A stretch of 64,000 nt of DNA from Methanosarcina sp. 2.H.T.1A.6. Lineage in GTDB: Archaea > Halobacteriota > Methanosarcinia > Methanosarcinales > Methanosarcinaceae. Shown in pieces: positions 4,845 to 63,363 of this stretch; position 1 is the first letter of the stretch, and each line of letters begins with the position of its first letter. The position numbers were made by a program, and so were the translations under genes. The notes beneath the pieces were generated by a model, which was not told where the DNA came from, did no database searches, and was given only the letters and a program-made list of their open reading frames with translations. Location of the stretch: NCBI RefSeq assembly GCF_000979455.1, contig NZ_JJOY01000049.1, positions 186,001-250,000 of the forward strand, read 5' to 3'.

Positions 4845-5633
4845 TTAGTGTCTCCTGAAAAGTTTCTTTTTACTGTTGAATATCCCTTTGGTTTCTTTGC
4901 CGCTTGATGCCGTACTGGTAGCCCGGGCAAGTAGCAGTGACGCTGAATCAAGTCCATCATCGAGAACTTCCAGCTTTCCGGAACTGGCAAACTTCAGGCT
5001 CTCAACTTCTGAAATTTCATCCTGAATACTGACCTTTTTCTCTTCCGACTCTGTGAACCCTTTTCCGAGAATAAAATCGTATTCAGCGTCTTTTAACTCC
5101 ATATTGAATCTCGAAAAACCATCTTTTTCTGTAAGAGACCTTTCGAGTGTTTTCTGGACTTCTTTTTCAATCTCGTCTTCACTGTGACTCTTTATCTTTT
5201 CGGACTCTATCTCAGAAAGTTGTCTTGCTCTCTCTTCAATCTGATTCAAAACCGTATTTGCAAAGGCATTTCCTGCAAGCAGGCAGACCCCTGTAGCATA
5301 TACGGCTGCTATATAGGTAACAGTCGGGTATACCCAACCATGGGGGTAAACTGCAAGAAAAGCTACAATCCCTGTACAATTAAGGATAAGCCCTGTTCCC
5401 ACGATATGCAGATGATATTCTTTCGGTTGCTTTATCATCAGATTGATACCGGTAAGGATCAGGGATAAACCGAAACCTATGAAACCATAAGTAATGGCTA
5501 TTTCTCCAGGATCGGATTTTCTTGTAAGATGTACTGAAAGAGCAAAAACAATACCTGTTAGCGCCAAAAGAAAACCGGATAGCAGCGCCATCGATGCAAA
5601 ATAGTGGCTTATTTTGGATTTCATTGACACCAT
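4845..5633 (-). CDS. Polytopic membrane protein with cytoplasmic tail, partner of actin-like ATPase
   Basis: A 262-residue protein. The first ~140 residues contain about five hydrophobic helices (FASMALLSGFLLALTGIVFA, ITYGFIGFGLSLILTGINLM, LHIVGTGLILNCTGIVAFLA, VTYIAAVYATGVCLLAGNAF and connecting turns). The last ~120 residues are charged and likely coiled-coil (QIEERARQLSEIESEKI...EDEIEKEVQKTLE), ending in basic KKKLFRRH. The start is 5633 or the internal ATG at 5624. It is the first gene of a two-gene operon, and its cytosolic tail is the obvious candidate for anchoring the downstream actin-like protein to the membrane. No named family is recognised. Confidence 0.65.
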   Translation of the reverse strand: MVSMKSKISHYFASMALLSGFLLALTGIVFALSVHLTRKSDPGEIAITYGFIGFGLSLILTGINLMIKQPKEYHLHIVGTGLILNCTGIVAFLAVYPHGWVYPTVTYIAAVYATGVCLLAGNAFANTVLNQIEERARQLSEIESEKIKSHSEDEIEKEVQKTLERSLTEKDGFSRFNMELKDAEYDFILGKGFTESEEKKVSIQDEISEVESLKFASSGKLEVLDDGLDSASLLLARATSTASSGKETKGIFNSKKKLFRRH

Positions 5634-6235
5634 TAATAAGATAGTAGGGATATATAAAAACGTTTTGTTTTTTTTACAAAGATACTATTGAATTTTAAAA
5701 AAACTGTGATAAAGATTAATTTAATAATTGACCACGCATTGATGGTTGGAAATTACATATTTCCAAAAATATTTTGTTCAATTCCAATCTCAGATTCAAC
5801 ACATATAAACCTTCTAATGATCTCGAAAACACGCGCTTTTTACAGGGTGATTCAGAGACCAATTAATATATGATTAATCGAGGTATTCTGTATTCTGAAA
5901 AGAAATTAGAGAATCTGTATGCAATTTTTTGTGGAAAATATATTTAGTAAGTAGCGGGGAAAAAATCGATAACTGATTAATTTAATATATTATGTAATCC
6001 GGCATATTTCTCTTGACTCTGAAAAGTTATGTCTACAAAAATAGATTTTTAACACTTGCGTGACATACGAACAAAAGTGTTAAAGCAGGAAAGTGCATAT
6101 CGAAAAAATTGAAGGTGCGGATGGAAAGAACTTGAAGGTTTAAATCGTTCAGCAGTTCATCAATAATAGTTCAGCTTTTTTCCCGCGTATTTCCTGATCA
6201 CAATCAATCTCTTCTTTTTTTTATTACAAGGGAGC
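5634..6235. other. AT-rich intergenic region
   Basis: No gene is supported over about 600 bp. It separates the actin-like operon, which is transcribed away from it, from the left end of the IS200-type element. Confidence 0.4.
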
Positions 6236-51093: not shown

Positions 51094-51126
51094 TGCGAAT
51101 TTCCTCCCTTTTCCAGACCGTTAAAT

Positions 51127-51225
51127 AAGTCTGATGTAGCAAAATCTGATGTAGCAAAGTCTGATGTAGCAAAATCTGATGTAGCAAAATCTGATGTAGC
51201 AAAGTCTGATGTAGCAAAGTCTGAC
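51127..51225. repeat. 15-bp tandem repeat, seven copies
   Basis: The unit AAGTCTGATGTAGCA (or AAATCTGATGTAGCA) is repeated without gaps immediately upstream of the DUF1638 gene. All copies stay in one frame on either strand because the unit is 15 bp. There are no spacers, so it is not a CRISPR array. Confidence 0.9.
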
Positions 51226-51274: not shown

Positions 51275-51294
51275 GTATCAAATATTCTTGATAC
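51275..51294. promoter_or_regulatory. Candidate ArsR operator 1 (upstream of AhpD-like genes)
   Basis: A perfect inverted repeat GTATCAA-N6-TTGATAC, 87 bp before the first open frame of the AhpD-like unit. Matches the palindrome found at six other places in the island. Confidence 0.65.
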
Positions 51295-51380
51295 TCATCC
51301 AGATGTTTTTAATGTGCAATTCATTAATACTACATAGTATTACTGATTTTTGGAAATCAAATTATTTAGGTGGCTGAGAA

Positions 51381-51542
51381 ATGGGAGACGAAAAAGAAGG
51401 AACGCAGGAGAAAAAGGCAGAAGAAGAGTCTAAGAATAGTATCGAACCTGATGACGAAGACCTTCTGTATACGCATAAGCCTGAATCCCAGGGCAATGAA
51501 ATGCGCTGGAACACCACTTTATGCAGAAAGCAGGGGCGTTAA
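51381..51542 (+). CDS. Small acidic protein of unknown function
   Basis: A 53-codon frame beginning MGDEKEGTQEKKAEEESKNS, hydrophilic and rich in Glu/Lys, with TLCRKQGR at the end. AGGTGG lies about 8 nt upstream. It precedes the AhpD-like gene by 31 bp and would be its operon partner. The composition is typical of real small proteins here, but no family is recognised. Confidence 0.45.
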   Translation: MGDEKEGTQEKKAEEESKNSIEPDDEDLLYTHKPESQGNEMRWNTTLCRKQGR

Positions 51543-51573
51543 AAACCTTTTTTCATTACCGGAGGAGATTTTA

Positions 51574-51915
51574 ATGTCATTTTTAAACGAAATGTTGCCT
51601 GAAACTGCCGAAGCTTTTGGACAGTTGAGAAATTCTATTTTCAAGGACAGTTTCCTTGACATTAAGACAAAAGAACTGATTGCTGTTGCCTCGTCGGTAC
51701 TCATGCGCTGTCAGTACTGCGTTGATGTACACTCCCAGAGGGCAGTTGCAGCAGGGGCTACAAAAGAAGAGATCGCCGAAGCCATTTCAGTTGCCATGTT
51801 TGTAGCTGCAGGGTCGCAGATTGGGTGGACGAACATATACGGTGAAAACGTCTACGACAAAATTTTTGAAAAGGATAAGGACGAAGAAGAATGCTGTTGT
51901 TGCTGTGAGGACTGA
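51574..51915 (+). CDS. AhpD-like carboxymuconolactone decarboxylase family protein
   Basis: A 113-residue protein with the CMD core KTKELIAVASSVLMRCQYCVDVHSQRAVAAGATKEEIAEAI; C-x-x-C with a nearby His is the AhpD-type redox site. It ends in a run of five Cys (EECCCCCED). GGAGGAG lies 6-7 nt before ATG 51574, so the longer frame from 51370 is rejected. Members reduce peroxiredoxins or act as small thiol reductases. The five-Cys tail may bind soft metals or metalloids. An operator-like palindrome lies upstream, and the last 24 codons are duplicated at 55861. Confidence 0.88.
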   Translation: MSFLNEMLPETAEAFGQLRNSIFKDSFLDIKTKELIAVASSVLMRCQYCVDVHSQRAVAAGATKEEIAEAISVAMFVAAGSQIGWTNIYGENVYDKIFEKDKDEEECCCCCED

Positions 51916-52024
51916 AATCCTCCAGGCATTTTCATTTTCAGGCTTTTTACTGGTTTTTCTTATCTTCTTTGTTTTTGTTTTTCTCGGCTTTGTTAATCTT
52001 TCTCTTCGGTTCGAGTTTAACCTT

Positions 52025-52384
52025 TTATTCTGATTTTTTGTTTTGCATCTGCGAGATGATGTTCAAAATATTTCCAAATTCAGGGTTTAACCTGTAAAAC
52101 TTCCATTTTGAGCTGCTGTAAGCTTCGACAATCCCGCAGTTTTTCATGATAGTCAGATGATGGGAAACAAGGTTCTGCCTCTCGTTTAACTTGAATATCA
52201 GTTCGCAAACACAGTGGTCTCGCTGAGATAGAAAATAAGCAATTTTTAATCTCATCGGATGCCCGAGAGCGCTGAATATCCCACTGGCTTTTTTAATGTC
52301 ATTGTCCAGAAAATCTATTTCCTGGGTCATTTTCTCTTCCCATTCCTTTTTTTTCTCAGGATCCGCAGGGCAGCAATAGCTCAT
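52025..52384 (-). CDS. ArsR-family repressor (copy 1)
   Basis: A 119-residue winged-helix regulator. It has Cys at CCPADPEKKKEW near the N-terminus, the core IFSALGHPMRLKIAYFLSQRDHCVCELIFKLNERQNLVSHHLTIMKNCGIVEA, and C-V-C in helix alpha3, the ArsR metal-sensing position. It is convergent with the AhpD-like gene. A near-identical copy lies at 56008-56367. Its upstream palindrome (52422-52441) has decayed compared with copy 2. Confidence 0.9.
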   Translation of the reverse strand: MSYCCPADPEKKKEWEEKMTQEIDFLDNDIKKASGIFSALGHPMRLKIAYFLSQRDHCVCELIFKLNERQNLVSHHLTIMKNCGIVEAYSSSKWKFYRLNPEFGNILNIISQMQNKKSE

Positions 52385-52421
52385 AAATAAAAGAAGTTAA
52401 GCTTTCTAAATAAGGATATTC

Positions 52422-52441
52422 ATCTCAATTTTGTTTGATGT
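52422..52441. promoter_or_regulatory. Degenerate ArsR operator upstream of arsR copy 1
   Basis: ATCTCAA-N6-TTGATGT occupies the place of the perfect palindrome found upstream of copy 2, with one change in each half. Confidence 0.4.
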
Positions 52442-52747
52442 CAAACATGTTATTATTTATATTTGATTTTTTTTCAGAACCGCGTCTCATTTATACTGAT
52501 TAACTTTTTTTCAAATTTTTCTGTATCTGCGTGAAAAGGCGGTACGGCTGTGAAAATTAACTGCCCAAAAAGAAGGGTCTTTAACCCAAAAGCTATATAT
52601 ATTTATGCACATATGGGTGAAATTGTGGTTATCTCCTCTTGAAATCACAAATCAGTGAACTTAAATAATAAAAAATTATTCAATGTAAAGCTCTGATTGT
52701 ATGGAGAAAAGGTATCACAAGAAGTAAGACTCGGGGGTATAAAAAAC
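52442..52747. other. Intergenic region
   Basis: No gene. It holds the divergent promoters of arsR copy 1 and the methyltransferase; TATA-like AGCTATATATATTTATG is present around 52591-52607. Confidence 0.4.
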
Positions 52748-53452
52748 ATGTCGAAACCAAAATCTGTCTGGGAAGAGTTTTTTGCAGATAAGAGAAGCGG
52801 AGGTCACAGGTCTTCATCTGAGGAATTTATTTCCAGAGAAGCCAGGGAAAAACTCTTCCATCTGGATGGGGGCAAAACACTTCTTGACTTTGGTTGCGGG
52901 GCCGGAGAGCTCCTGGTTTATTATGCATTGGAATATGAAAGGCTTGTAGGAACCGATTTTTCCGCATCAATGCTTGATGAAGCAGGTAAAAGAATCCGGA
53001 AAAGAAAGTCTGAAAATATAGCTTTAATCCTTGCTGACGATAAAACTGTCTGGGAAAAGCTTGATTCCTCCTTTGACCGGATAACTGCAGCTGGAGTGAT
53101 CCAATACCTCACAGATGAAGAAGTTGATACTTTTGTTTACAATTCATCAAGGCATCTTAATAAAGGAGGTAAAATAGTCCTTTTTGACCTACTGGATCCT
53201 CGCTTATATCCATTATGGAAAATAGGGTTCTTTTCACGCGACTTCGGATACTGGAAAATCTTTCGTAAAATAGGCTTTGAAGTTCTCACAGTTATATCAG
53301 CGAGCTTAAAAAATCGCCCAAAAGATATTCTCGGATATACTCATAAACCCCGTACAATAGAAAGTATTGCAAATAAACATGGGTTTAAGATGGAGTATGT
53401 GCAGTCCATGTATTATGAGTACAAGTACCATGCAATAATATCTCGTGAGTAA
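52748..53452 (+). CDS. Class I SAM-dependent methyltransferase
   Basis: A 234-residue enzyme from the ATG at 52748 (GGGGG about 10 nt upstream). Motif I is LLDFGCGAGELLVYYA, motif II/III includes VGTDFSASMLDEAGKR and ALILADDKT, and the post-motif reads DRITAAGVIQYLTDEEVDTFVYNSSRHLNKGGKIVLFDLL. It lacks the conserved Cys pairs of arsenite methyltransferase ArsM. It may modify a small molecule or surface glycan; the next gene is a carbohydrate-esterase-like protein. Confidence 0.85.
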   Translation: MSKPKSVWEEFFADKRSGGHRSSSEEFISREAREKLFHLDGGKTLLDFGCGAGELLVYYALEYERLVGTDFSASMLDEAGKRIRKRKSENIALILADDKTVWEKLDSSFDRITAAGVIQYLTDEEVDTFVYNSSRHLNKGGKIVLFDLLDPRLYPLWKIGFFSRDFGYWKIFRKIGFEVLTVISASLKNRPKDILGYTHKPRTIESIANKHGFKMEYVQSMYYEYKYHAIISRE

Positions 53453-53498
53453 TAAGACACTACTATTCAATAATATATATTGAGTTTAGTTATTTCAA

Positions 53499-55295
53499 TT
53501 GACTAAAATGATTTCTTCCCAGATTATTCATTACTTGTCCTGTATTGGAGGAACTGGTATTTCCCCTTGCACAGTTAATCCCGAAAATCCTGAAAATATT
53601 GGTCAGGGTAGTATCACTCTGTTTTCACAGGATTACTCTAAAAATGACAGTGTTCAGAATAACGTTTTCATGGCCAAACTTCAAGGGAATAAGCCTTATG
53701 ACCGGCTATATTCAGTAATTTACGGGACGCTGAAAACACAGGTTCTTTTTAATGGCTTTTCAAAAGGGCTAAAGTATAAAACTACAAAAGACCCCGGTTT
53801 ATCTCCCTGCGGTTTTCTTCCAGCTGCAGATGCTGTTTTTAGTTCTGGAATAAACAGGTGCACAGGAAGCTTAATGAAATCTCCAGATGCCCACAGGTTC
53901 TGTGAAGCTGCTTCCTTTCAGCATATTCACTACCAGGGACAGCCAAGGCAAACAGGGTCGCTTTACATCTGCAGGCTTACACCAATGGTTAAATGTACTT
54001 ATCACATTTCGATGGATATAAAAACGGACAGTTCTCAAAGTTTTGTTGAGCTTAACAGCCCGGGTTCAAAGCTGGTAATTCAGGAGACAAATAACAGGAT
54101 TATATTAAAAAGTTATTTTGAAATTTCTTCCGACGATATCGGGTCTGAAACCCTATTTCTGGGGGATGCCGCGGAGAAGCTGGATTTTGAAATTACGTTT
54201 GACGGATGCAGTAAGACAAACACCATATTTGCAAAAGACGGAAAATATATCACGACTCCTTTTTATAATTTTGAGAGGCAAAAGTTGCCGTATATTGATT
54301 TTTCAAATGGGTACTTCAAGTTCACATCTTTTCTCACTGGAAAAGGAAGATACTTCGATGTCAGTATATACCGCATAAGCCAGAGAGCAGACCGTAAATT
54401 CATAACCGCAATAGGGGATAGTGCGCTGGTTCCTTTCGGGCTTGACGGGCCTCATGTAAGAAATACTACCGAGAAGGGTATAAGCTACCTTAACAGCAAG
54501 AATTATAGAGGCACCATCTGGTTTGATATAGAGCTTCTTGGGCAGTGCAGTGAGTCAGACCTTGGATACCTGCGCAACCTGGTTGTTAATAATTCCTGGG
54601 ACGTAGGGGTACACTACTCTGAAGAATTAAACAGCCTCCCTAATGAGCAGGCCTGTAAAGTAATGGATGAGGGATACTCATATGTTTATGAAAAAATAGG
54701 AAGGAAGCCGACAAGCTGGTGCTCCATGAGAAACAGGGACAATGTTACACATGCAATTTATGCATATGAAAATCTGGGGATGTTCTGGAGAAACGGAGAC
54801 TCGGGAATTCATGCGGAAAGATATATTGGAAATCTGGATGATGATGCCTGGGTATGGTGGGAGCCAGCATCCGGGGCAGGCATGGTTTATCCGGCTTTCA
54901 CCCACGAACTCGACCTGGAACCCTCTATAAAATACTCTATCAGCCGCTCAAAATTCCATAACTGGATGGATAACTACAATTCAAATAAGATGTCCATAGT
55001 ATCGTTTTATGAATACAACCGGATAAGCCGCAATACATATGATGCCAGTTTTGACATTTTGAAATACACAGAGAATTTTTTCGTGTTTAATGCACATACA
55101 AAAGGCTTTGATGCTCTGGTAAATGTAAATATAAGTGCTGGAGAAAACACCAGGGTATGCGATAATACCTTAGAACAGTTTCTCAGTTATAAACTCGAGC
55201 AGGATAAATCGATTACGTTCCGGGTAAAAAACAATCATACTTACAGTGTGTATCTGGATAGCGTAGATAAAGAGTGTGATGGTCCTGTAGGCTAA
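53499..55295 (+). CDS. Large protein with a polysaccharide deacetylase-like region
   Basis: 598 residues from TTG 53499 (or ATG 53508). Residues about 170-285 look like a beta-sandwich. The region from about 300 to 480 resembles NodB-fold deacetylases (FITAIGDSALVPF, RGTIWFDIELL, DVGVHYSEELN, YEKIGRKPTSWCSMRN), and a second beta domain ends the protein. A D-x-x-x-H pattern suggests a metal site, but the standard catalytic HxxxH motif is not clear. No signal peptide is found, and the N-terminal 130 residues are unusual. Function uncertain; possibly an export-independent glycan-modifying protein. Confidence 0.6.
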   Translation: MTKMISSQIIHYLSCIGGTGISPCTVNPENPENIGQGSITLFSQDYSKNDSVQNNVFMAKLQGNKPYDRLYSVIYGTLKTQVLFNGFSKGLKYKTTKDPGLSPCGFLPAADAVFSSGINRCTGSLMKSPDAHRFCEAASFQHIHYQGQPRQTGSLYICRLTPMVKCTYHISMDIKTDSSQSFVELNSPGSKLVIQETNNRIILKSYFEISSDDIGSETLFLGDAAEKLDFEITFDGCSKTNTIFAKDGKYITTPFYNFERQKLPYIDFSNGYFKFTSFLTGKGRYFDVSIYRISQRADRKFITAIGDSALVPFGLDGPHVRNTTEKGISYLNSKNYRGTIWFDIELLGQCSESDLGYLRNLVVNNSWDVGVHYSEELNSLPNEQACKVMDEGYSYVYEKIGRKPTSWCSMRNRDNVTHAIYAYENLGMFWRNGDSGIHAERYIGNLDDDAWVWWEPASGAGMVYPAFTHELDLEPSIKYSISRSKFHNWMDNYNSNKMSIVSFYEYNRISRNTYDASFDILKYTENFFVFNAHTKGFDALVNVNISAGENTRVCDNTLEQFLSYKLEQDKSITFRVKNNHTYSVYLDSVDKECDGPVG

Positions 55296-55373
55296 TTGTG
55301 AGTCCACGATATTTTTTGTAGGCTGGTAGTCTGAAGGCTGCTTTTTGTTGCCTGGTCCCTCTCATCTATAAGT

Positions 55374-55694
55374 TCAGATACTATTGAATTCAATACTGAT
55401 GCTGCCCGCCTTTTTTGCCAGGGACTTCGCCATAAACCCGCTTTCAAGCTTGCAGAGGTTGAGTATGGCGCAGGGGACCAGGCAGTTTGAGGAGCACTGC
55501 GCTTCCTGTGCTCTATCAATCACGTAGTTGTTTTTTATGTCCAGGGTTTCCATCATGGGAATTTCCATATGCGAAAACTTTTTTATTTTTTCACAGGGGG
55601 TTTCGATATCTACGATAATCTTATCGCCCTTCATACCCCCCATAATTTTGTGGGTAAAGCCGCAGATGGTAGAGTTTACTGTAATTTCGGTCAA
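55374..55694 (-). CDS. Cys-rich protein (paralog A)
   Basis: A 106-residue protein: MTEITVNSTICGFTHKI, then KIIVDIETPCEKIKKFSHMEIPM, then C-x3-C-x3-C-x5-C in QCSSNCLVPCAILNLCKLESGF. Six cysteines are conserved with the paralog at 60716-61036. The AKSLAKKAGSISIEF ending is also shared. The Cys pattern suggests metal binding or thiol redox chemistry. Both copies stand inside the arsenic-type island. I recognise the sequence only as an uncharacterised family (possibly DUF6951). Confidence 0.75.
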   Translation of the reverse strand: MTEITVNSTICGFTHKIMGGMKGDKIIVDIETPCEKIKKFSHMEIPMMETLDIKNNYVIDRAQEAQCSSNCLVPCAILNLCKLESGFMAKSLAKKAGSISIEFNSI

Positions 55695-55841
55695 TTTTTC
55701 ACCTCATATTTCTTATTTCCTTGAGCTTTCTTTTTTTATCGCGGATTTCGGGGTTTCTTTAGCGTTTTTCCAGATTATCCCTACTATCTTTTCTCTCTAT
55801 TTCCTTTTTATTATTTTCCTTCTATTATATGTCCCTTCTGA

Positions 55842-55861
55842 ATATCAATGAAAATTGATAT
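55842..55861. promoter_or_regulatory. Candidate ArsR operator
   Basis: A perfect palindrome ATATCAA-N6-TTGATAT, 147 bp upstream of the Cys-rich gene (paralog A) on the minus strand. Confidence 0.65.
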
Positions 55862-55935
55862 GTGAAAACGTCTATGACAACATTTTTGAAAAGAAGACGG
55901 ACGAAGAGGAATGCTGCTGTTGTTTTGAGGACTGA
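55861..55935 (+). pseudogene. Remnant of a second AhpD-like gene
   Basis: 75 bp encode CENVYDNIFEKKTDEEECCCC and FED before a stop. This equals the last 24 residues of the AhpD-like protein at 51574-51915. Nothing upstream matches the rest of the gene. It is the left edge of a duplicated block that also contains arsR copy 2. Confidence 0.85.
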
Positions 55936-56007
55936 ATGCCTCTATTTATTTTGATTTATCTTTTCTTCATTTTTGCTTATTTTGTTCTTCAGTTCGCGCT
56001 TGAACTT

Positions 56008-56367
56008 TTATTCTAATTTTTTGTTTTGCATCTGCGAGATGATGTTCAAAATATTTCCAAATTCAGGGTTTAACCTGTAAAACCTCCATTTTGAGCTGCT
56101 GTAAGCTTCGACAATCCCGCAGTTTTTCATGATAGTCAGATGATGGGAAACAAGGTTCTGCCTCTCGTTTAACTTGAATATCAGTTCGCAAACACAGTGG
56201 TCTCGCTGAGAGAGAAAATAAGCAATTTTTAATCTCATCGGATGCCCGAGAGCACTGAATATCTCACTGGCTTTTTTAATGTCATTGTCCAGAAAATCTA
56301 TTTCCTGGATCATTTTCTCTTCCCATTCCTTTTTTTTCTCGGGATCCGCAGGGCAGCAATAGCTCAT
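56008..56367 (-). CDS. ArsR-family repressor (copy 2)
   Basis: A 119-residue protein that differs from copy 1 at four positions (I for T near 20, E for G near 35, R for K in SKWRFY, and L for S at 118). The sensor helix CVCELIFKL and N-terminal Cys pair are unchanged. A perfect 20-bp palindrome starts 38 bp upstream (56405-56424), which suggests autoregulation. The duplicated block extends about 90 bp beyond the start. Confidence 0.9.
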   Translation of the reverse strand: MSYCCPADPEKKKEWEEKMIQEIDFLDNDIKKASEIFSALGHPMRLKIAYFLSQRDHCVCELIFKLNERQNLVSHHLTIMKNCGIVEAYSSSKWRFYRLNPEFGNILNIISQMQNKKLE

Positions 56368-56404
56368 AAATAAAAGAAGTTAAGCTTTCTAAATAAGTAT
56401 TTTC

Positions 56405-56424
56405 ATATCAATTTTGTTTGATAT
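56405..56424. promoter_or_regulatory. Candidate ArsR operator upstream of arsR copy 2
   Basis: A perfect palindrome ATATCAA-N6-TTGATAT, 38-57 bp upstream of the arsR start, so it overlaps the expected promoter or transcription start. Confidence 0.7.
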
Positions 56425-56484
56425 TGATCATGTTATTATTTATATTGGATTTTTTTCCAGAATTTTGAGGCCCCAGCTGATTCT

Positions 56485-56504
56485 ATATCAAGATTTTTTG
56501 ATAT
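56485..56504. promoter_or_regulatory. Candidate ArsR operator in the arsR2-trx intergenic region
   Basis: A perfect palindrome ATATCAA-N6-TTGATAT. Following DNA (AATGTAATTCATGAAT) resembles that after the AhpD operator at 51275, so this may be the promoter of the lost second AhpD-like gene. Confidence 0.6.
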
Positions 56505-56557
56505 CTACCTTGCAGTATTATATAAATGTAATTCATGAATTCAATTGGAATAACTAA

Positions 56558-56688
56558 CAGCCTATCTGAAAAATGTTGTGACTTACTGTACTTTTACTAT
56601 TGACAATATGCACAACCGGAACGGATACTCTATATTATAGACCGATTGTAACTTTACAATATGCATTACTGACTTTTTGGATAGGCTC
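56558..56688. mobile_element. 131-bp MITE related to the 129-bp family
   Basis: The left end reads CAGCCTATCTGAAAAA; the right end, reversed, reads GAGCCTATCCAAAAAG. It is bordered by the 3-bp duplication TAA (56555-56557 and 56689-56691). Length, TIR core (GAGCC-x-ATC) and duplication size agree with the elements at 45431 and 46441. Confidence 0.65.
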
Positions 56689-56847
56689 TAAGACTTCTTT
56701 GTTGGATGAAATGGTGCCAGAATTAACCTGATAATTACAAATTTTTTTAGCCATGACTTCGTTTCATTGATGATAATACACTTTTTTCAATTTTTTCTGC
56801 ATCTGTTTGATTTATACAAAATATTAATATCATATATATATTTAAAT

Positions 56848-56867
56848 GAATCAATATATCTTGATAC
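56848..56867. promoter_or_regulatory. Candidate ArsR operator upstream of the thioredoxin lipoprotein gene
   Basis: GAATCAA-N6-TTGATAC, one mismatch from the consensus, ending 59 bp before the gene start. Confidence 0.6.
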
Positions 56868-56926
56868 ACACAACTCCCTTATTATTTCTTATAAAAACAT
56901 AACTTGATGATTTTCGGAGAATTATA

Positions 56927-57505
56927 ATGAAGCGATTGCATAAAATACAAGACACAGAACGAGTTTCGTTTTCGTTTCCGCTCTTTTCGAAAAAACCGCT
57001 TTTCATTTTGGCGATTTTTTGTTTTCTTCTCTTCAGCTCAGGTTGCACTGATAATTCCGGCAACGAAGCAGAGTTTGTTGAAGTTACAAAGGATGTTAAC
57101 GATTCTGGCAGTGGGGCAGAATTGGTCGAAGTTACGAATCTGAGCCAGATTGATGAAGCCCTCACAAAAGGTCCTGTTGTTCTGAAGCTTGGTTCTAAAG
57201 GGTGCATTCCTTGTAAAGAGCAGGAAGAGGTGCTTTCAGAGCTCCTTCCAATCTATCAAGATTCTGCTTCAATTATGCTCATCGATATCAAAGAGTACCC
57301 TGAGTTTGCAACAACGTTCGGAGTAAGAGTCATTCCGGATACTTGTATCATTGAAGGTATCGAGGACGGCAAATACATGTACATGAAGCAGGACGGAAGC
57401 AAAAGTTCGGAAAGGGCGAGTGCAAGGTTCCTGGGTGTTGTCGATAAAGAAACCCTTTCAGAGACTCTTGAGAAAGCCCTCGAATCCAGAAACACAGGGG
57501 AGTAA
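56927..57505 (+). CDS. Thioredoxin-fold lipoprotein
   Basis: A 192-residue protein. A basic N-terminus leads into a hydrophobic segment and lipobox FSSGC (near residue 39), a spacer rich in Asn/Asp/Glu, then a thioredoxin-like domain from about 65 with active site C-I-P-C (GSKGCIPCKEQ) and the cis-Pro loop GVRVIPDT. It would sit outside the membrane and pass electrons to or from a partner. CcdA, the usual electron donor for such proteins, is encoded 2 bp downstream. The upstream palindrome suggests ArsR control. Confidence 0.87.
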   Translation: MKRLHKIQDTERVSFSFPLFSKKPLFILAIFCFLLFSSGCTDNSGNEAEFVEVTKDVNDSGSGAELVEVTNLSQIDEALTKGPVVLKLGSKGCIPCKEQEEVLSELLPIYQDSASIMLIDIKEYPEFATTFGVRVIPDTCIIEGIEDGKYMYMKQDGSKSSERASARFLGVVDKETLSETLEKALESRNTGE

Positions 57506-57507
57506 AT

Positions 57508-58152
57508 TTGTTTTCTGACTTTCTCCCGGTTGCTGCTTTCTTTGCAGGGGTCGTTAGTGTACTCTCCCCATGTATCCTTCCTGTAATTCCGGCAGTATTT
57601 GCTTATTCAACTGAAAAAGGAAAGTTCAGGCCCCTTGCAATCGTATCAGGGCTGTCTCTTTCCTTTACCAGCATGGGAATCGTCACTTCCCTTTTCGGAG
57701 CGACGCTCACGGCTTATCTAGGTTACCTTAATATTTTTGCAGAAGCTCTTCTGATCACGATGGGCGTTTCATTGCTCTTCGACCTCAATATTTTCAATGT
57801 TTTTGGTAATTTTTCTTCACTTGCAAATTCCGAACGAGAGGGTCTTTTCGGAGGCCTTTTGCTTGGTCTCTCTCTCGGGATTATCTGGCTCCCATGTGTG
57901 GGCTCAGTACTTGGTTCAATCCTTACAATGGTTGCTGTTTCAGGTAAAATTACGTATGGGGCGCTGATGCTTTTCATTTATTCCATTGGCTTTTCAATTC
58001 CAATGCTGCTTGTTGCTTATTCTGCAAGCTTTTCTTCCAAAAAGCTTCAGAAAGTTTCAAAATATGGTTTTCCATTAAAAAAAGTTACAGGCCTTATAAT
58101 TCTGGGGGTCGGCTTTTTTATGGTTTACCAGAACCACTTCGGTAGCTTCTGA
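57508..58152 (+). CDS. ccdA: CcdA-type thiol-electron transporter
   Basis: A 214-residue membrane protein with six helices. The two conserved Cys lie in FAGVVSVLSPCILPVIPAVFAY (near 25) and LGIIWLPCVGSVLGSILTM (near 131), the CcdA/DsbD core. It carries reducing equivalents from cytosolic thioredoxin to extracytoplasmic proteins. TTG at 57508 is used, with GGGGAG 6-7 nt upstream. It is coupled to the thioredoxin lipoprotein gene, so the pair forms a reduction path across the membrane. Confidence 0.9.
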   Translation: MFSDFLPVAAFFAGVVSVLSPCILPVIPAVFAYSTEKGKFRPLAIVSGLSLSFTSMGIVTSLFGATLTAYLGYLNIFAEALLITMGVSLLFDLNIFNVFGNFSSLANSEREGLFGGLLLGLSLGIIWLPCVGSVLGSILTMVAVSGKITYGALMLFIYSIGFSIPMLLVAYSASFSSKKLQKVSKYGFPLKKVTGLIILGVGFFMVYQNHFGSF

Positions 58153-58166
58153 GATCAAATTACTCT

Positions 58167-58198
58167 GGCTTATCCCAATAAGCCATGCAGTTTTTTTT
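58167..58198 (+). terminator. Terminator after ccdA
   Basis: A perfect 7-bp stem GGCTTAT (58167-58173)/ATAAGCC (58178-58184) with a CCCA loop is followed shortly by TTTTTTTT (58191-58198). Confidence 0.75.
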
Positions 58199-58408
58199 GA
58201 AATAGAAATTGGTTAACAGTGCCTGGAAATATCTTTGGAGAGAATAAGCCTGAGGAGCTGGAAAAATATATCCCAAAAAAAATATAAAGGATGCTGCTGT
58301 GGGGACTAAAAAACGAACTGAAGCTTTGATTTTCGGACTCATTAGCTAATTTTACGATTTTTTTTGCTTTCCCTTTCTGCTTTCCCTTTCGACTTCTCTT
58401 TTTTCCTA

Positions 58409-59461
58409 TCAAAACCTGAATTTTTCCCTATTCCTGTTCATGATCTTCACAAGGGAAAGCATAACAGGCACTTCCACAAGCACTCCCACAACGGTTGCGA
58501 GTGCAGCTCCTGATTCCATTCCGAACAGAATTAAGGCTACTGCCACTGCCAGTTCAAAGAAATTACTGGCGCCGATAAAGGTTGAAGGCGCAGCTTCCCT
58601 GTAGGGAATTTTCAGGTATTTTGCTCCTGCATACCCGATTCCGAAGATCAGGTAAGTCTGCAGCACCAGAGGGATCGCGATCAGGAGAATGTGCAGGGGG
58701 TAATTTATAATGTTGTCTCCCTGGAATATGAAGATCAGAACCAGAGTTATTAAAAGTCCGGCAGGGGTAATCCACTGTGTTTTTCGGATCAGTCTGTTTT
58801 CAAACCAGGTAATACCTTTTTTCCTTATTACTACCTGCCTTGTCAGCACAGCAAGGCCGAGAGGAATTGCCACATAAAACAGGACCGAGACGAAGATAGT
58901 CATGAGAGGAACCGGAAAATCAGTTGTAACCCCCAGGAGAAACTTTCCCAACGGAGCGAAAAGGACCAGGATAATAAGGTCATTTACTGAGACCTGAATC
59001 AAAGCATAGTTAATATTGGCTCTTGCAAGGTAGGTCCAGACAAGTACCATAGCCGTGCAGGGAGCAATCCCTAGCAGGATCATGCCTGCAATATACTGCG
59101 CCTGAAGGCCAGCAGGGATCAGGGATTCAAAGAGCACGCGCATAAAAAGCCATGCAACAAAAGCCATCGTAAAGGGCTTGATTGCCCAGTTTACGATCAG
59201 AGTTAGAAGGAGTGGCTTTAAATTTGCCTCAACGTTCAGGATTTCTTCAAAATTAATCTTAAGCATGATAGGATACATCATGACCAGGAGCACGATAGCT
59301 ACAGGTATTGAGACATTTGCAATCTCAATACCTCCAAGGGTGTCCGCAAAACCTGGAAAAACATAACCTATTGCAGTTCCGAGCATGATACAGATTGCAA
59401 CCCAGATAGAGAGGTATTTACTGAAGAAATCAAGCTCCCTTTCTTCATTCTCTTCAGGCAT
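58409..59461 (-). CDS. acr3: Arsenite efflux transporter, Acr3 family
   Basis: A 350-residue, ten-helix transporter. Acr3 marks are MLGTAIGYVFPG near the N-terminus, GIAPCTAMVLVWTYLARANINYALIQVSVNDLIILVLFAP (with the conserved Cys, about 132-172) and FIGASNFFELAVAVALILFG (about 291-310). The family extrudes arsenite using the membrane potential. The ATG at 59461 (MPEENEERE) lies in a 42-bp tandem duplication that also covers the end of the Usp gene. Confidence 0.93.
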   Translation of the reverse strand: MPEENEERELDFFSKYLSIWVAICIMLGTAIGYVFPGFADTLGGIEIANVSIPVAIVLLVMMYPIMLKINFEEILNVEANLKPLLLTLIVNWAIKPFTMAFVAWLFMRVLFESLIPAGLQAQYIAGMILLGIAPCTAMVLVWTYLARANINYALIQVSVNDLIILVLFAPLGKFLLGVTTDFPVPLMTIFVSVLFYVAIPLGLAVLTRQVVIRKKGITWFENRLIRKTQWITPAGLLITLVLIFIFQGDNIINYPLHILLIAIPLVLQTYLIFGIGYAGAKYLKIPYREAAPSTFIGASNFFELAVAVALILFGMESGAALATVVGVLVEVPVMLSLVKIMNRNREKFRF

Positions 59462-59531
59462 ATCCTTCTCCCTTATCCCACTCTTCTTTCATTCTCTTCA
59501 GGCATATTCTTCTCCCTCATCCCACTCTTCT
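59446..59531. repeat. 42-bp tandem duplication at the usp-acr3 junction
   Basis: 59446-59487 and 59490-59531 match with two differences (period 44 bp). Each copy contains the MPEENE start sequence on the minus strand; in the upstream copy it overlaps the stop of the Usp gene. Confidence 0.85.
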
Positions 59532-60385
59532 CCCTCGAACTCTTTGCTTGCAGGGATAATCAGCACGGGTTTTGTGGTTTTCCTGAGTACATTTTCTGCC
59601 GTGCTTCCGAGCAGAAGGTCCATTAAGGCTCCTTCCCCGCGGGCAGTCAGCATAATCAGGGTGATATCTTCTATGCTGGCAAATTTAACAATCTCATCTG
59701 ATGGGATTCCTTCAACGACAAGGTACTGGCTTTTTATGCTTTCAAGCCGCTCCTTAATTCTCCTGAGCTTTTCTTTTGCCTCTTCTCTCTGTTCGTCCAG
59801 CAGGTCCATATCTTTTATGTCATCTATTACATGCAGGAACAGAACTTCGTTTAAGATTTCTTTAAACTCCTGAAGTTGTTCTATCGCCTTCATTGCCTCT
59901 TTTGAAAAGTCAAGAGGCACAAGAATTTTGGAGAAAGTTGCCCTGCACGCCTTCTCATAAACTTCCTTTCCTTCTTTCATAGCTTCATACTTTTCAACCA
60001 GCAGTATTTTCTTTGAACTGCGTGCTATGTATTCCGTAGTTCTTCCGAGAAGTTTCCCCTTTATGAATCCTTTAGTGGTGGCCCCCATTATTATCGCATC
60101 AACGTCTTCCCGGTCTGCTATCTCCGCAATTGTCTTTCTGACGTCTCCTAAAACTACCAGGGTTTCGGTTTCAAGTTCAAGTTCCCTGGCAAAACCTGCA
60201 TAATCCTCAATCCTTTCCTTTGCATTCCGTTCAAACATAGGGGCAAGCCCCTGGCTTTTATGTATGTCCACTACATGCAGCAGGATAACTTTCTTCAAGC
60301 CGGCGTTTTTAAGTTCTCCTATGCAGCCGAGCAAATCTTCCGTTTCGATAGTAAAATCCGCAGGAACAAGTACTGTGCTTATCAT
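59498..60385 (-). CDS. Tandem universal stress protein (UspA x2)
   Basis: Two Usp domains of about 140 residues each: the first starts ISTVLVPADFTIETEDLL and ends GRTTEYIARSSKKILLVEK; the second starts FSKILVPLDFSKEAMKAIEQL and ends GSTAENVLRKTTKPVLIIP. Both keep the ATP-type G-x2-G-x9-G-S/T-like patterns (GATTKGFIKGKLLGRTTEY). A longer frame from GTG 60508 exists, but ATG 60385 fits the family start. It lies upstream of acr3 on the same strand with a 36-bp gap, so the two are co-transcribed. Confidence 0.85.
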   Translation of the reverse strand: MISTVLVPADFTIETEDLLGCIGELKNAGLKKVILLHVVDIHKSQGLAPMFERNAKERIEDYAGFARELELETETLVVLGDVRKTIAEIADREDVDAIIMGATTKGFIKGKLLGRTTEYIARSSKKILLVEKYEAMKEGKEVYEKACRATFSKILVPLDFSKEAMKAIEQLQEFKEILNEVLFLHVIDDIKDMDLLDEQREEAKEKLRRIKERLESIKSQYLVVEGIPSDEIVKFASIEDITLIMLTARGEGALMDLLLGSTAENVLRKTTKPVLIIPASKEFEGEEWDEGEEYA

Positions 60386-60520
60386 CTGCTGTCCGCAACC
60401 CCCTTTTGCTCTATTTGCTTTCCAGTTCTTACTTTTCAGCATCATCCTGTAGCTTTCTGCTGATCCCCAGTTCATAATTATGTCTTTATCGCTAATAGCT
60501 TGATGCACTGAAATAAAAAA

Positions 60521-60640
60521 AGAAGAGGTGTTTTTAAAAGAAGGGGTGTTTTTAAAAGAATAACTATTTTTAAAATGGATGGCTGTTTTTAAAATGGATA
60601 GCTGTTTTTAAAAGAAGATATGTTTTTAGGAAAAAAATGT
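60521..60640. repeat. Degenerate 17-18-bp repeats upstream of the Usp gene
   Basis: About five copies of a unit like TGTTTTTAAAAGAAGGGG or ATGGATGGCTGTTTTTAAA. Confidence 0.6.
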
Positions 60641-60715
60641 TTTGGAAAATAAGGTTCTGCCCGAAATTTCAAGATATGAAGGGTCATGGGTAGATCCTTA
60701 CTTCTCAGAAATATC

Positions 60716-61036
60716 TCAGATTTCATCAAAATCGATACTGAGGCTTCCTGCTTTTTTTGCAAGGGACTTTGCAAGAAACCCGCTTTCCAGCTTGCAGAGG
60801 TTAAGCACCCCGCAGGGCACAAGGCAGTTTGAGCAGATTTTTGCCTCTTTTGCCCTGCCCATCACATAGTTGTCTTTGATGTCCAGGGTTTCCATCATGG
60901 GAATTTCCAGGTGCGAGATTTCCTTTATTTTTTCACACGGAGTTTCGATATCTACAATGATTTTTCCGCCTTTCATGCTTCCACGAATTTTGTGTGTAAA
61001 GTCGCATATTGTGGAGTTGACAGTAATTTCAGCCAT
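60716..61036 (-). CDS. Cys-rich protein (paralog B)
   Basis: A 106-residue paralog of the protein at 55374-55694, about 75 percent identical. It retains IC at 10-11, TPCEKI, and C-x2-C-x3-C-x5-C in KICSNCLVPCGVLNLCKLESGF. One Cys is moved (ICSNC against CSSNC). It stands between the Usp and the glutaredoxin-like genes. The paralogs may serve in metalloid or thiol handling; no biochemical role is known. Confidence 0.78.
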   Translation of the reverse strand: MAEITVNSTICDFTHKIRGSMKGGKIIVDIETPCEKIKEISHLEIPMMETLDIKDNYVMGRAKEAKICSNCLVPCGVLNLCKLESGFLAKSLAKKAGSLSIDFDEI

Positions 61037-61183
61037 ATGACCACCTCAATTCGTTTTCAAATTCAATTTTCAGGTATCTGAAAATATTAATTAATCCTTC
61101 TCCATAGTTAATAATTAATCTTTCTCCAAAGATTTACGTTCATATAAAACCTGAATAGTCCGGGTCTGTCGGGGCCAAGATAT

Positions 61184-61414
61184 TTATTCAATCCATTTCC
61201 GGATTTCTTTTTCATCCGGGACTTTGCCCGCAAGCTTAACTTCGCCATCAACCACGACTGCAGGAGTTACCATCACGCCGTAGTTCAGGATCGTTTCAAT
61301 GTCCTCAACTTTTACTACTTCGGCTTTCTTTCCTGTTTCAGTAAGGACTTTTTCGATAGCTTCCTTTGTTTTCTTACACTTTGCGCATCCGGTTCCGAGA
61401 ATTTCGATTTTCAT
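61184..61414 (-). CDS. Small thioredoxin/glutaredoxin-like protein (MTH895 type)
   Basis: A 76-residue redox domain: KIEILGTGCAKCKKTKEAIEK with active site C-A-K-C (9-12), VEDIETILNYGVMVTPAVVVDGEV with the cis-Pro, then GKVPDEKEIRKWIE. GGTG lies 6 nt before ATG 61414; earlier in-frame GTG codons are rejected. This type is often encoded with ArsP/DUF318 permeases, and such a permease gene lies upstream here. Confidence 0.9.
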   Translation of the reverse strand: MKIEILGTGCAKCKKTKEAIEKVLTETGKKAEVVKVEDIETILNYGVMVTPAVVVDGEVKLAGKVPDEKEIRKWIE

Positions 61415-61436
61415 GTTTTTCACCACTTTTTGTCTT

Positions 61437-61555
61437 TTGATTTCAGGTTTTGATTTCAGGTTTTGATTCAGGTTTTAATTCAGATTTTGATTCAGGTTTT
61501 AATTCAGATTTTGATTCAGGTTTTAATTCAGATTTTGATTCATATTTTGTATTTT
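61437..61555. repeat. 15-bp and 30-bp tandem repeats upstream of the glutaredoxin-like gene
   Basis: Alternating GATTTTGATTCAGGTTTTAATTCA-like units, about eight half-units, fill the gap between the permease stop and the redox gene start. Confidence 0.8.
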
Positions 61556-61588
61556 CAATCGCTCAGTTTTCACAGATTTCCGCTATAG

Positions 61589-62560
61589 TTATAGCAGTAT
61601 GTTGAACAGGTAGCCCGTGAAAACGATCGACAGCGCCACAATTGAGATAAAGATTGCAATCAGTTCTTTTTTCAGCACCTTTTTAAGGATGATCATTTCG
61701 GGCAGGGACACAGCCGTAACCGACATGAGGAATGCCAGTGAAGTCCCTATCGGGAGTCCTTTTCCTATAAGGCTCTCCACTATTGGGATCATGCCCATGA
61801 CGTTTGAGTAGAGGGGTACGCCCACAAGGACAGCAATCGGAACTGCAAGCAGATTGTCCTTTCCTGCGTATTTTTCGAGGATTCCTTCGGGGGCATAGCC
61901 GTGGAAGATGCCTCCGATGCTGACTCCTATAATCACGTAGATCCAGACCCTGCTGACGATGTCTTTAACGCTTTCAAGAGCAATGCCTGTCCTTTCCTTT
62001 ATTGTAAGGGTTTCCGGTCCTGTAGCCTGATTCCCTACTTTAATTTTGTAAACGAACTCTTCCACATACCTTTCCAGCTTCAGGAAGCCAATCAAATAGC
62101 CTCCAAATACGCCGAGCAAAATACCCGATATCACATAAATTACAGTTGCCTTCAAGCCGAGGGTTGCCCAGAGTGCGGCCACAGCAGCTTCGTTTACCAG
62201 AGGGGATGTTATCAGGAAGGAGAAGGTAACTCCGAGGGGCACTCCAGCTTCCACAAATCCTATAAAAAGGGGCACTGAGGAGCATGAACAGAACGGAGAG
62301 ACTGTCCCTAGCAGGGAAGCTATCAGGTGATAGCGGAGCCCTTTCTTGCCTCCGAGCACCTTTCTTGTCTTTTCCGGAGTGATATAGGTCCTGAGGTAGG
62401 AGATCGCGAAAATCATCACGGACAGCAGGATGACTATTTTCAATACGTCGTAGATGATGAAATTAACACTGGCTGCAAGGTGAGTAGCGGGTGTAATCCC
62501 GAAAACCTCGTATGTCAGTTTGTCTGCAATCCATTGCAGAGGATAAAAGATATCAGCCAT
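61589..62560 (-). CDS. ArsP/DUF318-type permease
   Basis: A 323-residue, eight-helix permease. The signature TVSPFCSCSSVPLFIGFVEAGVPLGVTFSFLITSPLVNEAA (about 86-126) contains the Cys pair of ArsP, which exports trivalent organoarsenicals. A second half has PLYSNVMGMIPIVESLIGKGLPIGTSLAFLMSVTAVSLPEM. A perfect half and near-perfect half of the island palindrome lie 63-82 bp upstream. It is followed by the glutaredoxin-like gene, so reduction and export may be coupled. Confidence 0.85.
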   Translation of the reverse strand: MADIFYPLQWIADKLTYEVFGITPATHLAASVNFIIYDVLKIVILLSVMIFAISYLRTYITPEKTRKVLGGKKGLRYHLIASLLGTVSPFCSCSSVPLFIGFVEAGVPLGVTFSFLITSPLVNEAAVAALWATLGLKATVIYVISGILLGVFGGYLIGFLKLERYVEEFVYKIKVGNQATGPETLTIKERTGIALESVKDIVSRVWIYVIIGVSIGGIFHGYAPEGILEKYAGKDNLLAVPIAVLVGVPLYSNVMGMIPIVESLIGKGLPIGTSLAFLMSVTAVSLPEMIILKKVLKKELIAIFISIVALSIVFTGYLFNILL

Positions 62561-62622
62561 TTTGAGTCCCTTCTTTTCTGTTTTATTTTTGCCCTATTTG
62601 GATGCCCAATTCACATTCTATT

Positions 62623-62642
62623 ATATCAGCATATATTGATAT
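62623..62642. promoter_or_regulatory. Candidate ArsR operator upstream of the ArsP-type permease gene
   Basis: ATATCAG-N6-TTGATAT; one base from the consensus. A further half-site TTGATAT lies at 62652-62658. Confidence 0.6.
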
Positions 62643-62828
62643 AACAATTCATTGATATAAGGATGTCGCTTCAATGAAATTTTTTACAGGAATACATGAG
62701 TTAGAACTTGAACGTTCAATCCAGCAAAATCTCAAAATATACCGGGTTCAATACCTTATTCCGGATATTTTTGAGAACGAAAAGAGACCACAGTACGTTG
62801 GGATAAAAAATTTAGCTGAGGTTCTAAA

Positions 62829-63090: not shown

Positions 63091-63363
63091 TTATTCTTCT
63101 ACTATTTTCAAAATCTCCCTGACTTTTTCGTTGTCTATGGAATAAAGCCTCATCTTCCCGTCCTTTCGTACTTTGATGATATCCCAGTCCTGCAGTTTTG
63201 CAAGATGCATCGAGGTGTTGGACTGGGTCTTGCCTATGAGGTCAGGAATCTCACAGGCGCATTTTTCCCCTTCAAGCAGAACTTTTATGATTTTATATCT
63301 GGTCTCCTCGCTCAGGGCTTTGAAGATCTGTATATTCTCTTCATTAATCATATAATCAATCAT
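63091..63363 (-). CDS. ArsR-family regulator (third type)
   Basis: A 90-residue winged helix: IFKALSEETRYKIIKVLLEGEKCACEIPDLIGKTQSNTSMHLAKLQDWDIIKVRKDGKMRLYSI. C-A-C in the alpha3 helix is the metalloid-sensing pair. It differs clearly from the two ArsR copies at 52 and 56 kb. No ribosome binding site precedes the start, so it may be leaderless. It faces the zinc-ribbon gene and could control the DGC-type gene upstream or its own gene. Confidence 0.9.
   Translation of the reverse strand: MIDYMINEENIQIFKALSEETRYKIIKVLLEGEKCACEIPDLIGKTQSNTSMHLAKLQDWDIIKVRKDGKMRLYSIDNEKVREILKIVEE

Follow-up and report, generated by a model that had tools for sequence, protein, structure and literature searches.

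The window analysed here, 64,000 nucleotides of Methanosarcina sp. 2.H.T.1A.6, carries the arsenic and thiol-redox genes listed in Table 1 together with copies of the palindrome RTATCAA-N6-TTGATAY, all of which were recovered where an earlier note on this DNA had placed them and with the mismatches given in the table. Acr3 scores 379.6 bits against TIGR00832 (cut-off 282.8) and the ArsP permease 231.6 bits against ArsP_1, and both resistance genes are linked to arsR. The acr3 gene is co-directional with, and lies behind, uspA and, further up, arsP. The earlier remark that acr3 lacks an obvious site is borne out, as no operator was found within 400 bp upstream of it, nor at acr3 across Methanosarcina. 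A near-match at 62639-62658 that overlaps the arsP site was taken as the arsP TATA region and not as a second site.

Table 1. Genes and proposed operators in the window (positions are those of the window).
Feature	Position	Strand	Evidence
Operator, perfect, heads orf53-ahpD	51275..51294		
orf53, 53 codons, conserved, probable first gene of ahpD operon	51381..51542	+	tblastn
AhpD-like (CMD, PF02627), Cys-rich tail	51574..51915	+	
arsR copy 1, 119 aa	52025..52384	-	
Operator of arsR copy 1, two mismatches	52422..52441		
Perfect operator, orphaned	55842..55861		comparison with relative L074
Remnant, duplicated ahpD 3' tail	55862..55937	+	75 bp at 88% to ahpD tail
arsR copy 2, proposed repressor	56008..56367	-	
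Operator of arsR copy 2, perfect, 37 bp before start codon	56405..56424		
Perfect operator, probably orphaned	56485..56504		position compared with L085, L108
Operator of thioredoxin-ccdA pair, one mismatch, about 60 bp upstream	56848..56867		
Membrane-anchored (lipoprotein-like) thioredoxin	56927..57505	+	
CcdA/DsbD transmembrane protein	57508..58152	+	
Acr3 arsenite efflux pump	58409..59461	-	TIGR00832
MTH895/ArsE-type thioredoxin, behind arsP	61184..61426	-	
ArsP-type permease (PF03773)	61589..62560	-	
Operator of arsP, one mismatch, 62 bp upstream	62623..62642		
ArsR3, different ArsR-type regulator	63091..63363	-	

Site-to-gene distances of 40-150 bp had been claimed, but the ahpD start codon lies 279 bp past the site at 51275. 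The gap before ahpD is filled by orf53, which starts 86 bp past the same site, reads DEEDLLYTHKPES..MRWN..LCRKPG with the motif LLYTHKPES and is matched by tblastn in the corresponding position of about 30 loci; it is probably the first gene of the ahpD operon. The site at 55842 had been assigned to a Cys-rich gene, an assignment that we abandon: no intact gene follows it, the open reading frame behind this orphan operator being the duplicated ahpD tail. The relative L074 has a second ahpD, absent from the window, whose promoter shares 26 identical bp with this site. The site at 56485 occupies the same position as the operator of a decaying AhpD-like pseudogene in L085 and L108 and is, by this comparison, probably orphaned as well.

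The perfect palindrome occurs five times in the 4.07 Mb genome by whole-genome motif scan, every copy lying on contig C22 between 237275 and 256677, a span of 19.4 kb. Four of the copies are inside the window and the fifth, 6.7 kb beyond its end at C22:256658-256677 (L016:7159-7178), heads an HTH/Fe-S operon. The earlier note would have fallen had the motif been equally frequent elsewhere in the genome; instead all perfect copies sit in this one cluster. With up to one mismatch there are 16 matches genome-wide, seven of them in the cluster, and the remaining nine, two of which fall in long open frames, are about the number given by chance and were set aside. In 20 Mb of sequence simulated with a first-order Markov model of the window the perfect motif never appeared, and matches allowing at most one mismatch numbered 5.3 per genome equivalent; the genome itself has 5 and 16, which upholds the judgement that the repetition is unlikely to be accidental.

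A scan of related genomes, as the earlier note had proposed, found the motif in 28 of 30 Methanosarcina genomes (the source genome included), with 110 perfect copies compared with three of the reversed motif in the same 30 genomes. When flanking genes were assigned by blastp against the proteins of the locus, the sites were found to precede arsR (by 37 bp), arsP (about 55 bp), thioredoxin-ccdA (about 60 bp), the ahpD types, the HTH/Fe-S gene and a Cys-rich gene of 101 codons; two relatives also have a site before arsM (354.9 bits to NF008823, cut-off 263). Counts per gene family are inflated, as the presence of a site was the reason for choosing many of the loci. In a less biased comparison a site with up to one mismatch lies 45-104 bp upstream of arsP in 34 of 36 records, in which two genes are counted twice. 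Genes internal to operons have none (ccdA, 0/15; arsC, 0/15; dsrE/F/H-like genes and ORF94, 0/129). Matches in G006 and G028 inside an open reading frame of more than 1,100 codons were treated as background. The HTH genes, which encode a C-terminal Fe-S domain (PF04060), are paired at L016:6159-6965 and 5103-5909; such genes head a dsrE-dsrF-dsrH-like run and reach up to four copies per genome.

In most genomes the motif is co-conserved with ArsR: two genomes (G015, G023) have neither, and G016 has a single site beside an arsR remnant. Four genomes (G010, G027, G034, G035) keep a perfect arsP site with no detectable arsR, and these are the main gap in the case for ArsR; the assembly of G027 is fragmented and that of G035 is a complete genome. 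In G010 acr3 (L081:2835-3886) and an HTH/Fe-S gene (L119:5490-6296) are each split in two frames, and with arsR absent this looks like a decaying arsenic locus in which the arsP operator has been retained.

Orthologs of arsR in other genera were listed by protein search alone, and the close sister genus g5 was set aside. In thirteen of 16 a site, perfect or with one mismatch, stands 34-38 bp ahead of the start codon, and the proteins of these 13 are 39-55% identical to that of the window. Several are divergent from uspA-acr3 or acr3, with the site common to both. Orthologs with no site of their own are those of G001, g5 and G021, and in g5 and G021 DUF6951 precedes arsR in a run of co-directional genes. 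Single matches away from ars genes in these genera were regarded as background, and plasmids carry only distant ArsR proteins (<60% identity).

The 119-aa ArsR matches PF01022 with 46.4 bits (cut-off 22) and NF033788 with 72.2 bits (cut-off 55), and its predicted structure, with a mean pLDDT of 87.6, has the ArsR/SmtB winged-helix fold. The best Foldseek matches of the model are the ArsR/SmtB structures CadC and CzrA (Staphylococcus aureus), SmtB (Mycobacterium smegmatis) and SqrR (Rhodobacter capsulatus), which have the same fold at about 26-32% identity but differ in ligands and targets. Cys4, Cys5 and Cys58, candidates for a three-thiolate As(III) site, are invariant and the recognition helix QNL(V/I)S(H/Y)HL is nearly so. 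The palindrome stands in the promoter of arsR itself, at copy 2 as at most orthologs, and its core, ATCAA-N6-TTGAT, is identical to the ArsR consensus published for bacteria; sites of this type are bound by ArsR proteins of Paracoccus, which arsenite or diamide releases from them (PMC9137774).

It is with a probability of roughly 85% that we consider RTATCAA-N6-TTGATAY to be the operator of this ArsR, encoded by both arsR copies, which would repress an arsenic-thiol regulon. A dimer bound to the palindrome would repress arsR itself, orf53-ahpD, thioredoxin-ccdA and arsP, possibly including the co-directional genes behind arsP, as well as the HTH/Fe-S-dsrEFH run past the window. Cys4, Cys5 and Cys58 may be where trivalent arsenic acts, or may themselves be oxidised; either event would free the dimer and induce export and thiol repair together. 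The binding, the ligand and the repression are what we infer from sequence. The claim that one ArsR regulon joins metalloid export with thiol reduction is supported by the conserved placement of the sites, the arsR sites in other genera, the arsM targets and the core consensus. We regard the regulon as real, and it would be one of the conserved ArsR type, extended in these archaea to thiol-redox genes.

The position of the sites relative to the TATA box, located from averaged sequence scores only, suggests how repression might be achieved. TATA lies 19-26 bp before the start of the site at arsP, thioredoxin, the Cys-rich gene and arsM, the arsM average being of two sequences only with its best score on the opposite side. 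At the HTH/Fe-S gene and both ahpD types TATA follows the site, 34 bp from its start and 14 bp from its end, and at arsR there are TATA candidates on both sides of the site. An operator just after TATA, as at arsP and thioredoxin-ccdA, would block the polymerase, and one 14 bp before TATA, as at HTH/Fe-S and ahpD, would hinder TBP/TFB. Both operator positions fit repression, because the boxes of MsvR proteins occur in either position and are believed to serve repression there (PMC3729527).

Further ArsR-type regulators lie nearby, ArsR3 among them within the window. It is also possible, if unlikely, that another ArsR paralog, ArsR3 or a related protein, reads some of the sites, above all that of arsP. 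The perfect arsP site kept in four genomes that lack arsR speaks for such a reader, as does the frequent adjacency of arsR3 and arsP. However, no RTATCAA-N6-TTGATAY site lies close upstream of arsR3, G034 has the arsP site with no arsR3 alongside, and the ArsR3 operon has its own palindrome pair, ATTTCAAATATATTTGAAAT. The two copies, at C22:251414-251433 and 251453-251472 (L016:1915-1934 and 1954-1973) immediately beyond the window, are 39 bp apart around the TATA box of a sister permease, perm2; the pair is kept in the genus and its perfect copy is unique in the genome. Since perm2, a thioredoxin gene, DGC and arsR3 form a co-directional run, ArsR3 is the likely reader of ATTTCAAATATATTTGAAAT rather than of RTATCAA-N6-TTGATAY. 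One genome without ArsR, G035, has a palindrome of the second kind in its HTH/Fe-S promoter at a similar distance, a single case; a stepwise operator conversion at this promoter was considered and dropped, the alignment to its sisters being too poor to show one. It is tempting to speculate, though this too is unlikely, that one ArsR works in two modes, repressing after TATA (arsP, thioredoxin-ccdA) and aiding TBP/TFB where the site ends 14 bp short of TATA, as at HTH/Fe-S and both ahpD types, that the paralog runs the sister permease from its own palindrome pair, and that targets change hands on loss of ArsR as in G035.

That the sites belong instead to a redox regulator such as MsvR, with a regulon for oxidative stress and not for arsenic, is very improbable. 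AhpD-like, thioredoxin and CcdA proteins are among the targets, and MsvR, known from Methanosarcina acetivorans, is likewise an archaeal redox-linked autoregulator, with family boxes before TATA over the BRE or at the start site (PMC3729527). Yet arsP is a target too, as are arsM and promoters linked to acr3 in relatives, the motif tracks arsR orthologs, and the MsvR protein is a different one; MsvR was rejected as the reader because its box, TTCGN7-9CGAA (PMC3729527), is unlike the palindrome, and that box is absent from all sites in the window. Least credible of all is that the repeats arose by chance or were spread by local duplication: an arsR segment including its site is indeed duplicated within the window (477 bp at 95.6%), but spacer and flanking sequence vary from one gene's site to the next, start-codon distances are conserved throughout the genus and, in the case of arsR, from genus to genus, and perfect sites are not expected by chance at this genome size, the Markov expectation together with the genome and genus counts ruling out chance or A+T richness as the source of the motif.

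The switch proposed for ArsR is of a type already known. Bacterial ArsR operators in Campylobacter jejuni and Paracoccus denitrificans (PMC9137774 and its reference 37) have the same core, an ArsR/SmtB repressor and ars targets, whereas the sites described here belong to TATA-type archaeal promoters, are scattered over several operons that include thiol-redox and HTH/Fe-S targets, and would be read by a repressor that has an N-terminal Cys pair plus Cys58. The archaeal set of target genes appears to be undescribed, no account of the regulon having been found in a literature search mainly outside subscription journals. A conserved metalloid regulon of this kind is easy to test in Methanosarcina; it would join arsenic export with disulfide chemistry and with an uncharacterised HTH/Fe-S protein and its dsrEFH-like run, and give a context to the small Cys-rich and 53-codon proteins. 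An operator core common to bacteria and archaea bears on how ArsR has spread and adapted to TATA-type promoters, and the operators could be usable as inducible promoters.

Two further stretches of the window deserve mention. The non-coding segment at 56550-56690, between arsR copy 2 and the thioredoxin gene, ends in cagcctatc and gataggctc and has an insert-like look; a short inserted element at about these positions gained no support from an inverted-repeat search. At 51125-51225, just 5' of the operator at 51275, lie tandem TCTGATGTAGCAAAG units.
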